Source: Halorubrum sp. GN11_10-6_MGM (lineage in GTDB: Archaea > Halobacteriota > Halobacteria > Halobacteriales > Haloferacaceae). From it: 64,000 nt of DNA. The notes below the pieces were generated by a model that searched no databases, was not told where the DNA came from, and saw only the letters and a program-made list of their open reading frames with translations. How positions within the stretch are numbered: position 1 is the first letter of the stretch; every line of letters begins with the position of its first letter. Both the position numbers and the translations under genes were made by a program. The stretch is from contig NZ_SGUC01000001.1 of NCBI RefSeq assembly GCF_005435165.1, positions 124,001 to 188,000 on the forward strand, in the 5' to 3' direction. This document shows, one piece after another, positions 21,448 to 50,508 of the stretch.

Positions 21448-21588
21448 GCCCGGTGTCGGTCGCGAGCCTTGCGCGGTCGGATCGCGGACGGTTGTTTATA
21501 ACTAATCGCGGCGGCGCGTTCCCGTGAGCGGTCGCTCCGGACGAACTCGATCGGCCGCGCTTTTGTCGCCCCGTCCCGAACCCGGGTT

Positions 21589-25069: not shown

Positions 25070-25260
25070 GATTCTGTTTACAACCACCTGCTGGCAGTCG
25101 GTGCGCAGCGACCGCCCTCGAAGCCCCAGTCGAGTCCCCACTCGACCGCCCCTACACAGCACCCCACACCCCAGCCTCATCGGTCGCTTCGGGCTCCTTC
25201 CGGTCGGCCGGCCGCTCGCAGGCACGCGCCCCGCACCGCGGTCTGTTTATATACAGCCAC
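25070..25260 (+). repeat. Structured intergenic repeat, copy A (short form)
   Basis: Degenerate copy of the element seen at 38.2 and 50.1 kb. Shared parts: CGAAGCCCCAGTCG (25119-25132), an ACACAGCACC / CCCCAGCCTC region, and a 23-bp block (25208-25230) identical to 38477-38499. The long hairpin of the other copies is reduced to a 7-bp stem GTCGAGT/ACTCGAC with a CCCC loop (25129-25146). The right end holds CTGTTTATATACAG, a TATA-like box inside a small palindrome. Confidence 0.75.
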
Positions 25261-38151: not shown

Positions 38152-38531
38152 ACGTGCTGTTGGGTCTCGCCGGGGTAAGGGGTGTCGGCTGCCGTGACGG
38201 TGCTGTCGCTAGTTATAGATAGCCGATCGACATGACCACGCCCGAAGCCCCAGTCGTGAGGCGGGCGTACACTCGCTGCGGTCCTCGCTCGGTCGTCTCA
38301 CTCCCTCGCTGTGGTTCTTGCGTCGTCTACGCCCGCCTCACGACTGCCCCTTCGAGTCCCGCCCCGCACAGCACCGCAGCCTCACGCCTCCCCAGCCTCG
38401 TCGGGCGCGTTCTGCGGGCTCCCTTCGGTCGCCCTTGCCGCGCCCGACTCCCTCGCGCGTGCTGCCTCGCGGCCTACCGGCCGCTCGCAGGCACGCGCCA
38501 CCGCACTTCATCTATAAACAGACTCCGTCGC
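38152..38531. other. Non-coding interval between a zinc protein gene and an ABC ATPase gene
   Basis: 380 bp, almost entirely occupied by structured repeat copy B (38213-38517). Open frames across it (for example one containing CPFESRPAQH) recur in copy C only because the DNA itself is conserved in all frames. Confidence 0.8.
38213..38517 (+). repeat. Structured intergenic repeat, copy B (full form)
   Basis: About 305 bp bounded by an inverted 8-bp pair TTATAGAT (38213-38220) and ATCTATAA (38510-38517). Inside, an 18-bp perfect stem AGTCGTGAGGCGGGCGTA (38252-38269) pairs with 38328-38345 around a 58-nt loop, flanked by CGAAG (38243) and CTTCG (38350). A second stem GTCGGGCGCG/CGCGCCCGAC spans 38400-38448. 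A third GCGCGTGC/GCACGCGC spans 38455-38498. Linkers such as CGCCTCCCCAGCCTCGTCG are shared with copy C. Confidence 0.88.
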
Positions 38532-39680
38532 TCACCGCGTTTCGACGTCGATCACGTGCGCGTCGCTCGGGTCGAACCCGACCGCGACCGCGCCGTCGAT
38601 CGGGTCGGTAACACGAACCACGAGGTCGCGGTCGCCCCAGTCGAGCGTGACGCGCGTCGTCTCGCCGAGGAACTCTGCGCTGGCGACCGTCGCGCGCAGC
38701 GCGTTCCCGGTCACGGCCGCCGTTCCGTCCGCGACCCGGAGGTGTTCCGGTCGGACGCAGAACGTCACGCGGTCGCCGACCGACGGCGCGGCGGCGTCGC
38801 CCCCGCGGTCGGTCCGCACCCGGAGCGTCTCGTCGCCGCCGTCGACGTCGACCGCGAGTTCGCCCTCGGCGGTCGCGTCGGCCACGCGCCCCGCGAACAC
38901 GTTGTTGTCGCCGACGAACGCCGCGACGAACTGACTCGCGGGCTCGCGGTAGACGGTCCGCGGGGGAGCCACCTGCTCGGGGGCGCCGTCGTTCATCACC
39001 GCGACGCGGTCCGAGATCGCCAGCGCCTCCTCCTGGTCGTGGGTGACGTATATCGTGGTGATGCCGAGTTCGGACTGGATGCGCTTGACCTGGGCGCGGA
39101 GCCGCTCGCGGAGCCGCGCGTCGAGCGCGCTCATCGGCTCGTCGAGGAGGAGCACGTCGGGGCCGGGCGCGAGCGCCCGCGCCATCGCGATCCGCTGCTG
39201 TTGCCCGCCAGAGAGGCTCTCGGGGTCGCGGTCGGCGGCGTCGGGCAGGTCGACGAGTTCGAGGAGTTCCGCCACGCGCTCGTCGCGCGTGACGCCCTCC
39301 GGCGGCTCGGCGAAGTTGAGGCCGTACGCGACGTTCTCGCCGACGGTCATGTGCGGGAACAGCGCGTAGCTCTGGAACACGACGCCGACGTCGCGGTCCT
39401 CGGGGGGAACGCCCGCGACCGACTCGCCGCCGAATCTGACCGTCCCCTCGGTCGGCTCCTCGAACCCCGCGATCAGGCGGAGCGTGGTCGTCTTCCCGCA
39501 GCCCGAGGGGCCGACGAGCGTGAAGAACTCTCCTTCGCGGACCCGGATGCTCACGTCGTCGACGGCGGCCGTGTCGCCGTAGCGCTTCGTCACGCCGTCG
39601 AGTTCGACGGCGACCGGGGCGTCGGGGTCGTCCTCCGCATCCGTCCCGGCGTCCCCGCGCTCAGATCCCACGGTGTTCAC
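38532..39680 (-). CDS. ABC transporter ATP-binding protein (thiamine/iron/polyamine importer type)
   Basis: 382-residue ATPase. Walker A GPSGCGKTTT, Q-loop VVFQSYALFPHMTVGEN, signature LSGGQQQRIAMARAL, Walker B VLLLDEPMSALD and switch His in YVTHDQEEAL are all intact. The C-terminal TOBE regulatory domain (about 265-380) is of the PotA/FbpC type. It overlaps the permease gene by 20 bp (GTG at 39680; another GTG at 39671), and with the permease and binding protein it forms one minus-strand operon. Confidence 0.93.
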   Translation of the reverse strand: MNTVGSERGDAGTDAEDDPDAPVAVELDGVTKRYGDTAAVDDVSIRVREGEFFTLVGPSGCGKTTTLRLIAGFEEPTEGTVRFGGESVAGVPPEDRDVGVVFQSYALFPHMTVGENVAYGLNFAEPPEGVTRDERVAELLELVDLPDAADRDPESLSGGQQQRIAMARALAPGPDVLLLDEPMSALDARLRERLRAQVKRIQSELGITTIYVTHDQEEALAISDRVAVMNDGAPEQVAPPRTVYREPASQFVAAFVGDNNVFAGRVADATAEGELAVDVDGGDETLRVRTDRGGDAAAPSVGDRVTFCVRPEHLRVADGTAAVTGNALRATVASAEFLGETTRVTLDWGDRDLVVRVTDPIDGAVAVGFDPSDAHVIDVETR

Positions 39681-48117: not shown

Positions 48118-48184
48118 GTACGTCCCGATGTTCGAGTTTGATAATTTGCGGACGCGACGGTGTGTGACGCCGGCGGACGGCGCC

Positions 48185-48276
48185 GGTGGGAGACGACGGC
48201 GAGGAGGCGGCGTGGGGCGCGGGTGGGCGACGATGGCGCGAGGAGGCGGCGCGGGGCGACGGTGGACGACGGCGGG
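48185..48276. repeat. Imperfect ~39-bp tandem repeat upstream of uvrC
   Basis: About 2.4 copies of a purine-rich unit containing GCGAGGAGGCGGCG(T/C)GGGGCG and GGTGG(G/A)CGACG. It lies between the divergent promoters of the transducer and uvrC and reads open in several frames, but it is unlikely to be translated. Confidence 0.75.
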
Positions 48277-48336
48277 CCGAGAGCGCCCGGCCCGCAGCGT
48301 TCAAACGCGTTCGGCGGCTACGGCGATCCGAGACCG

Positions 48337-50121
48337 ATGGATGCCGACGCGGTGCGCGAGCGTGCGGCCGACCTCCCGACGGAGCCGGGCGTCTACCAGT
48401 TCTACGAGGGCGAGACGACGCTGTACGTGGGGAAGGCGCTCGACCTCCGCGACCGGGTGCGGTCGTACGCGGACCCGCGCTCGGGCCGGATACGCGGGAT
48501 GGTCGAGCGCGCCGACCGGATCGAGTTCGCGGTCACCGACACCGAGACGCAGGCGCTCCTCTTGGAGGCGAACCTCATCAAGCGGCTCCGGCCGCGGTAC
48601 AACGTCCGACTGAAAGACGACAAGTCGTACCCGCTCGTCGCGTTCTCTGACCACGATATCCCGCGGATCGAGGTGACCCGCGACCCCGAGGCGGGCGCGG
48701 TCGCGTACGGGCCCTTCACCGACGTCGGCCGCGTCGAGACCGTGGTGAAGGCGGTCCGCGACGAGTACCGGCTGCGCGGCTGCTCGGACCACAAGTACGA
48801 GGGCCGAGACCGGCCCTGCCTCGACTACGAGATGGGGATCTGCTCGGCGCCGTGTACCGGGGAGATCGGCGCCGAGGGGTACGCCGAGGACGTGGCCGCC
48901 GCGCGGCGCTTCTTCGAGGGCGAGACGGGCGCGCTCGCCGACCCCCTCCGACGGCGGATGGCGGCCGCGGCCGAGGCGAACGAGTTCGAGCGCGCCGCGA
49001 ACCTCCGCGACCGCCTCGAAGCGGTCGAGGCGTTCCACGGCGAGGGCGGCGAGGCCGTCAGCGACCGGAGCGACGACCGCACCGTCGACGTGCTGGCGGC
49101 CGCGGTCGAGGGCGACACGGCCCGCGTGGCGCGGCTCCACAGCGAGCGCGGCCAGCTGGTCGATCGGAGCCGGCACCGGCTCGACGCGGCGGAGGTCGAG
49201 GAGGCGCCCGGCGGCGGGGAGACGGAGTCGGCGGCCGACACGACGGACGCCAACACTCCCGCGGCCGTCCTCGCGGCGTTCCTCGCGCAGTACTACGCCG
49301 AGCGGGAGTTCCCGGACGCGGTCCTCTTAGCGGAGCGCCCGTCCGACCCGGACGTGGTCGACTGGCTGGAAGGGGAAGGCGTCGCGGTCCGGGTTCCGGG
49401 CGCCGGCCGCGAGGGGAAGCTCGTCGAGCTCGCGCTGAAGAACGCCCGGAGGCGCGGCGGGCGCGACGACCCCGTGGGCGCGCTCGGCGACCGGCTCGGG
49501 CTCTCCCGCCCGGCCCGGATCGAGGGGTTCGACGTGAGCCACGCGCAGGGGACCGCCGTCGTCGGCTCCGACGTGTGTTTCGTCGACGGGAGCGCGGAGA
49601 CGGCCGACTACCGGCGGAAGAAGCTCACCGACCGCAACGACGACTACGCCAACACCCGCGAGCTGGTCCGGTGGCGCGCCGAGCGTGCGCTCGACGGCTC
49701 GGACGACCGCCCCGACCCCGACCTCCTCCTGATCGACGGCGGCGAGGGGCAGCTGGGCGCCGCGCGCGACGCGCTCGCGGAGACGGGCTGGGACGTGCCC
49801 GTCGTCGCGCTCGCGAAGGCGGAGGAGCTGGTCGTCACGCCGACCGGAACCCGGCGCTGGGACGACGACGCCCCCGAGCTCCACCTCCTCCAGCGCGTGC
49901 GCGACGAGGCGCACCGCTTCGCCGTCTCCTACCACCAGACCGTCCGCGACGAGGTGGCGACCGTCCTCGACGACGTGCCCGGCGTCGGTCCGCAGACGCG
50001 CCGTCGCCTCCTGCGTCGGTTCGGCTCGGTCGAGAACGTTCGCGACGCGTCCCGCGAGGACCTCACCGACGTCGACGGCGTCGGCGACGCGACCGCCGAC
50101 ACGCTCCGGGAGCGGTTATAA
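48337..50121 (+). CDS. uvrC: Excinuclease ABC subunit UvrC
   Basis: Dual-incision nuclease of nucleotide excision repair. 594 residues. It has the N-terminal GIY-YIG nuclease ([20 protein letters not shown], about 19-38), a Cys-rich block ([15 protein letters not shown], about 160), the UVR helix pair ([18 protein letters not shown], about 215), the RNase H-like endonuclease domain with [10 protein letters not shown] and [13 protein letters not shown], and the C-terminal double HhH ([18 protein letters not shown]). ATG at 48337 is chosen because upstream codons read through the GC-rich repeat. Its stop codon lies inside the TATA-like end of structured repeat copy C. Confidence 0.97.
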
Positions 50122-50380
50122 ATCCATCCGCGGTGGCGCGCGCCTCCGAGGCCGCGCCGCGGCCGAGGAGCGCCGCGCGAGGGAGTCGCTGGCGGTCGGA
50201 GCGAAGCGAAGACCGCCAGCGACGAGGCTGGGGAGGCGCGAGGTGCGGTTGCTGTGCGGGGCTGGACTCGAAGGGGCAGCCGGGAGGCGGGCAGAGGCGA
50301 TGTAAGCACCGCAACGAGTGAGCGGAGCGAACGAGTGAGGAGCGCAGCTAGCGTCTGCCCGCCTCCCGGCTGGGGCTTCG
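50114..50380 (-). repeat. Structured intergenic repeat, copy C (full form, inverted)
   Basis: Reads on the minus strand. The 18-bp stem AGCCGGGAGGCGGGCAGA pairs perfectly with its partner (plus-strand 50354-50371 and 50278-50295). Outer CGAAG/CTTCG lie at 50376-50380 and 50269-50273. A second perfect 13-bp stem GTCGCTGGCGGTC/GACCGCCAGCGAC lies at 50185-50197 and 50211-50223. The right end GGATTTATAAC falls at the uvrC stop codon. Linkers around CCCCGCACAGC and CGCCTCCCCAGCCTCGTCG match copy B. Confidence 0.88.
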
Positions 50381-50508
50381 GTGGTGACCGTGTCGATCTG
50401 CGAGGTATGAATGGAGACATCATCGCAGGGCCGAGCAGCCGAGGCTTCGGCGGCGTTCTCCGCCCGGTCACTGATTTATTAGGCATCTCTCACAACTCCC
50501 AGTTCGTA
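50122..50508. other. Non-coding interval between uvrC and ThpR genes
   Basis: 387 bp: structured repeat copy C to about 50380, then about 95 bp without recognisable features, then the ThpR promoter. No believable gene. Confidence 0.8.
50475..50480 (+). promoter_or_regulatory. TATA box of the ThpR gene
   Basis: TTTATT starts 34 nt before the ATG at 50509. Confidence 0.55.

Follow-up and report, generated by a model that had tools for sequence, protein, structure and literature searches.

The window analysed here, a 64,000-nucleotide stretch of a Halorubrum sp. GN11_10-6_MGM contig, carries at 38213-38520 an intergenic sequence whose hairpin arms differ from those of an inverted copy in the same window while remaining paired, which raises the question of what kind of element this is and whether its fold serves in RNA or in DNA. 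The preliminary description placed copies B and C at positions that are correct on direct reading of the sequence and also counted a third copy, which exists, but as a partial one only (copy A). The copies and their parts are as follows:

38213-38520, plus strand: copy B, whole element (read from the sequence and by BLAST; nhmmer 236 bits), in the order AT box, leader, hairpin 1, C-rich linker, hairpin 2, linker, hairpin 3, AT box
38213-38219, plus strand: copy B 5' AT box TTATAGA (genus consensus TTATAAA, at -30 or -38 from CRAAG)
38243-38354, plus strand: copy B core module CGAAG-CCC-hairpin 1-CCC-CTTCG, a module type that is class-wide
38243-38247 with 38350-38354, plus strand: copy B outer helix, 5 bp
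38251-38269 with 38328-38346, plus strand: copy B hairpin 1 stem, 19 bp
38355-38399, plus strand: copy B conserved single-stranded linker AGTCCCGCCC...CACGCCTCCCCAGCCTC
38400-38448, plus strand: copy B hairpin 2, a perfect 10-bp stem, hypervariable among copies
38455-38498, plus strand: copy B hairpin 3, GCGCGTGC...GCACGCGC, with inner GCGGCC/GGCCGC
38510-38519, plus strand: copy B 3' AT box ATCTATAAAC (consensus TTTATAA about 12 nt past hairpin 3)
50114-50410, minus strand: copy C, whole element, inverted
50263-50380, minus strand: copy C core module (hairpin 1 and outer helix; 112 bits)
50185-50223, minus strand: copy C hairpin 2, a perfect 13-bp stem GTCGCTGGCGGTC/GACCGCCAGCGAC
50135-50180, minus strand: copy C hairpin 3
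50411-50457, minus strand: copy C solo 5' module (CCGCCGAAGCCTCGGCTGCTCGG...), a degenerate form of the tandem leader unit
25130-25250, plus strand: copy A, partial, the element's second half
21493-21530, plus strand: remnant of an element end (TTTATAACTAATCGCGGCGGCGCG), whose counterpart in the complete relative G022 is a full copy at 336021-336300

Copy B adjoins an ABC transporter gene (38532-39680), and the end of copy C abuts the stop codon of a uvrC-like gene (48160-50121). Four positions distinguish the first stems of the two copies, and at each of them the partner base has changed as well, as the preliminary description had noted; both stems are perfect, at 19 bp with the closing C-G pair and not the 18 bp originally given. 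The second stems, too, differ between B and C in the way quoted there and are perfect in both. Each of the two copies has a lower folding energy than all 100 dinucleotide shuffles (z of -4.0 for B and -5.4 for C).

The Halorubrum element is about 300 bp long with three hairpins, too short for a transposase gene. Its 5' part comprises the AT box TTATAAA, the leader GATCGACACGAACACC, the outer helix CRAAG/CTTYG and a CCC/CCC internal loop; hairpin 1, of about 90 nt, has a 19-bp stem and the conserved loop CTCGCTGCGCTCCTCG...GCGGTGCTT; and the 3' part consists of the C-rich linker, hairpin 2, TCCCTCGCG, hairpin 3, CACCGC and TTTATAA. Within the genus, linker conservation is 96-100%, and a C-tract lying beyond the search pattern is fixed although the base preceding it varies. 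On the opposite strand, the C-tracts flanking hairpin 1 read as G-tracts (GGG-N-GGG, GGGG, hairpin, GGGG), an arrangement conserved across genera, with a variable base between two of the tracts. About 55-63% of Halorubrum copies have an AT box at one end or at both, with a TATA-like box at the promoter-like -30 position in 25/126; no AT boxes were seen among the copies read from other genera. Upstream of the elements there are often one or more tandem 57-69-bp copies of the leader plus the first part of the core; at G022 358788-359480 (L118), about six tandem leader units of 57-63 bp lie beside a repeat as a potential VNTR. A tRNA-like B-box reading of TTCGAGTCCC was dropped because its CTTCG forms one side of the covarying outer helix. 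On the minus strand of the core module in copies outside Halorubrum, GTGGGACTGAAAG bears what we take to be a resemblance to the 3' handle of haloarchaeal CRISPR repeats; being absent from the Halorubrum version, it is a lead only.

BLAST with copy B gave 45 matches in the organism's own genome, from which 42 good copies were extracted with their flanks. The exact 14-base linker CCTCCCCARCCTCG occurs there 118 times, while its reversed control occurs twice; it is found in 52/52 genomes of the genus, at most 193 times. G022 has about 34 matches in its first 400 kb, or roughly one copy per 12 kb, and we estimate that the repeats take up 2-3% of a Halorubrum chromosome. The scan of other haloarchaeal genomes that the preliminary description had proposed brought up further copies in Halorubrum and well beyond it: R1, a covariance model of the hairpin 1 module whose matches were strictly filtered, was found in 106/146 haloarchaeal genomes of the order, representing 41/56 genera, and in 0/69 sampled non-haloarchaeal genomes of the same phylum. 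Many genomes outside Halorubrum have only one to a few R1 matches under these filters, and abundance therefore varies widely. A pattern scan for the core motif matched named genomes of Haloarcula, Haladaptatus, Natrinema, Natronococcus, Halorussus, Halostagnicola and others, and also of Halopiger, Halosimplex, Halobaculum and Haloparvum, with a long matching stem in 80/98 of the modules that carry both motifs. The repeats are a class-wide, non-coding family of haloarchaea in which one to three hairpins are flanked by constant unpaired linkers. The family is chromosomal: none of the 61 exact matches of genome G017 lies on its second replicon (0.53 Mb), and an origin from phages or plasmids was rejected on finding no match in phages, two weak partial matches in a plasmid collection and two matches in viral contigs. 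Neither Rfam 15, at gathering and at permissive thresholds, nor a literature search yielded a match or a published description, so that the element appears, as originally supposed, to be undescribed so far.

Pairing was assessed in 35 copies from several genera at ten named pairs in two defined helices. Standard pairs occupy 98.6% of cells, compared with 79% in shuffles; cells changed on both sides number 61, compared with 19 in shuffles; and displacing the partner by one to three columns lowers pairing to 27-51%. Across genera, the linkers are nearly invariant and the stems almost wholly different yet paired. Within Halorubrum, the outer helix of 129 copies is CAAAG/CTTTG in 68, CGAAG/CTTCG in 52 and the mixed CAAAG/CTTCG in 2, while hairpin 1 of 114 copies is 97.5% Watson-Crick with 68 distinct arms. 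The repeats thus keep their fold, and the proposal of a dispersed structured intergenic element, in which conserved linkers separate covarying arms, is borne out by these copies as well as by those of the window's own genome. Stems that change without compensation, which the preliminary description had set against its own claim, are rare but do exist (e.g., L150, where 9/19 hairpin 1 positions pair in register, owing to a one-base offset in one arm).

How the stems come to differ is seen at orthologous sites. The element, whole or partial, is present in the same orientation at the B site of about 28/30 genomes of the genus, and it or its remnants are found at the C site, beside uvrC, in about half of them. 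Among the B orthologues, an average of 6.2 of the 19 positions in the hairpin 1 arm are changed, yet at least 17 of the 19 pairs form in 15/20, and hairpin 2 takes some 17 forms in 20 parsed genomes, many of which recur elsewhere in the genus. Between orthologues, stems are replaced as whole cassettes and not base by base. L173 and L174 have hairpins 1 and 2 in common and differ in hairpin 3, in what looks like a cassette swap. The original claim of compensatory changes accordingly stands in part: all four partners match, but these are not simply independent point changes, the stems being mostly exchanged as whole cassettes that are met again at other places in the genome, so that counts of compensatory changes overstate the number of events. 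With one genome per species compared, copies are mostly shared between species or decayed, and many sites show decay and loss; the empty sites are too diverged for target duplications to be defined. The segment 12350-44600 of the window is inverted relative to G022 327000-360700. In G022, both breakpoints of this inversion coincide with repeat copies, one oriented opposite to the other, whereas neither site retains a full repeat in the window. A decayed element end persists at 21493-21530.

The repeats also receive insertions of their own. Double-hairpin inserts of about 50 bp (e.g., AGCGAGGGACCGAAGGTCCCTCTGGCAGCCGGCGCGTAGCGCCGGCGAC) occur in L172, L179, L181, L192, L164 and L161, from the B and C orthologous loci, and in L092; they lie mostly in the same linker of the repeat and themselves combine constant linkers with variable perfect stems. 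Another type of insert, TCGTTCGAAAGGCGC...GAACCACG, lies within the hairpin 1 loop of L188, L161 and L169, and at the B locus of G039 (L187) the repeat is interrupted by an IS630-like transposase gene.

With gene calls from a simple gene finder, 31/31 good copies in G022 are intergenic (overlap of at most 6 bp), as against 6% of random placements. Copies are over-represented in convergent gaps (12/31 copies versus 38/246 gaps, p 0.005) and under-represented in divergent ones (2/31 copies versus 62/246 gaps, p 0.02); in the window's own genome, 12/26 copies are convergent and 1 is divergent. Between tandem genes, the two orientations number 17 and 13 over two genomes, which amounts to no preference, and a UTR or terminator role was rejected on this ground.

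The preliminary description invoked selection on a fold, in RNA or in extruded DNA. In anchored counts, hairpins 1 and 2 together contain 3090 Watson-Crick cells, 12 G.T and 30 A.C, the last being G.U on the other strand, which puts wobble at 0.4% and 1.0% on the two strands; tRNAs in the same DNA have 35 G.U in 502 pairs (7.0%), and a single RNase P, a small control, has 2 in 68. Wobble is thus well below the tRNA rate on either strand, though cassettes exchanged only recently would be perfect too. Such near-absence of wobble, together with the random orientation to genes, makes a fold in DNA more likely than one in RNA; of the two options originally offered, the DNA one fits better, with Watson-Crick pairing on both strands and no fixed orientation. 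A structured RNA, encoded by many paralogous small-RNA genes or forming a 3'-UTR or intergenic mRNA element selected for its fold, would account for the strong covariation around constant loops, a classic mark of such RNAs, and the TTATAAA of type I copies, at -30, would place a transcription start close to CGAAG. Moreover, 16 of the 30 A.C cells fall in one hairpin-1 column, in which T.G never occurs, a hint of minus-strand RNA. We nonetheless judge this origin of the fold unlikely, if credible, given the rarity of G.U (which the lone RNase P shares), the indifference to gene orientation, the restriction of AT boxes to Halorubrum among the copies read, and the lack of an Rfam match. The repeats might instead be functionless relics of old mobile elements, their arms matched by gene conversion and by hairpin-templated repair that copies one arm to the other. 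Cassette swapping between orthologues, perfectly Watson-Crick arms and the many decayed or lost sites are all in keeping with this, and placement downstream of genes (the convergent and divergent counts given above) is also expected from purifying selection on insertions. However, arm-to-arm copying leaves unexplained linkers that are so conserved within the genus and recognisable class-wide, and the C-tract outside the search pattern is fixed next to a variable base; we thus consider a lack of function rather doubtful as an explanation.

Ongoing transposition has to be weighed against what is known of similar repeats. The palindrome-associated transposable elements (PATEs) of Haloquadratum walsbyi are non-coding, occur in high copy and are themselves hit by SMR-A inserts; their palindromes match the ends of IS605-type transposons, and their insertions are strain-specific (PMC3119063). 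PATEs have neither terminal inverted repeats nor target duplications. The present repeats are likewise haloarchaeal, non-coding, high in copy, palindromic and heterogeneous, with small hairpin inserts at set points, and the likenesses that we tested, a length too short for a transposase and prominent palindromes, hold. They differ in having stems without fixed sequence and copies orthologous across species, and in showing no link to TnpB: 29 TnpB loci contain 5 R1 matches in 92 kb, about the genomic density, and at least 24 modules occur in G193, where TnpB gave no match. IS605 ends were therefore rejected and the repeats are not filed as PATEs. Active movement in the manner of PATEs or REPINs, with single-stranded DNA hairpins as the substrate of an IS200/IS605-type enzyme or another HUH enzyme, would suit their palindromes and absence of coding capacity; 12 tail-to-tail inverted module pairs among the loci examined, including some of Haloarcula and Halovenus, recall REPINs, and the small inserts at fixed points recall the SMR-A elements that target PATEs (PMC3119063). 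Yet the background density at TnpB loci, the case of G193, the stability of copies at orthologous sites and a 0.53-Mb replicon free of copies, odd for an active transposon, make such activity very improbable.

The Halorubrum copies are single units; in L235, L241, L245, L249, L259, L318 and L330, core modules stand tail to tail 25-45 bp apart, the unit in L235 having matching outer ends AACAGCCAGAAAGCCCC...GGGGGCTTTCTGGCTGTT. Bacterial REPs are 20-40 bp long, with a conserved tag and a palindrome, and are associated with RAYT transposases. Like REP, BIME and REPIN sequences, the haloarchaeal repeats provide each genome with about 100 or more hairpins between genes, some of them in inverted pairs, but their units are 120-300 bp long with free stem sequence, and we know of no RAYT partner for them. 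Bacterial structured interspersed repeats such as BOX and ERIC are modular, with tandem subunits of variable number and compensatory changes. The present family shares with them its modularity, its variable number of tandem subunits (here leader units of 63-69 bp), its structure and its compensatory changes, but is unrelated in sequence, belongs to an archaeal host class and has a far wider taxonomic spread. As in MITEs, the units are short and without a transposase, and Halorubrum copies may carry an AT box at both ends (TTATAAA...TTTATAA), but neither a transposon with matching ends nor a target duplication was found here, and other genera lack the boxes in the copies read. Among described repeats, PATEs are the nearest haloarchaeal kind, and REPINs and BOX the nearest bacterial kinds, resembling the family in kind.

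The explanation that we tentatively prefer, at somewhat less than an even chance, is a foldback repeat that acts at the level of DNA and is maintained through recombination between copies together with selection on its shape and linkers. It is favoured by the copy number and taxonomic range, the pairing across genera, the replacement of cassettes and the near-absence of wobble, as well as by intergenic placement without orientation, the inversion breakpoints and the confinement to chromosomes; against it stand the copies beside TnpB genes, which are no commoner than background, the 16 C.A cells in one hairpin-1 column and the TATA-like -30 box in 25/126 copies. We posit that the unit would act as folded DNA, as a hairpin or cruciform when the strand is single during replication or repair or under supercoiling, and that a putative protein may read its shape together with the constant linkers. 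Recombination among copies would swap hairpin cassettes and could invert chromosome segments. The family probably spread in trans long ago, in a PATE- or REPIN-like manner, and would now persist mostly by descent, conversion and decay. An improbable further idea, suggested by the G-tracts, is that the G-rich strand could form a quadruplex-duplex hybrid and so provide a class-wide, shape-read chromosomal landmark whose stems are free of sequence. The haloarchaeal cytoplasm holds multimolar K+, in which such a hybrid would be stable.

These repeats make up a good part of the intergenic DNA of Halorubrum and cover most of the sampled haloarchaeal families. Whatever function they may have, the roughly 100 natural variants in each genome, whose linkers are constant while their stems are free, offer a ready test of shape-only selection in DNA, and through inversion breakpoints and cassette exchange the repeats bear on the recombination of haloarchaeal genomes.
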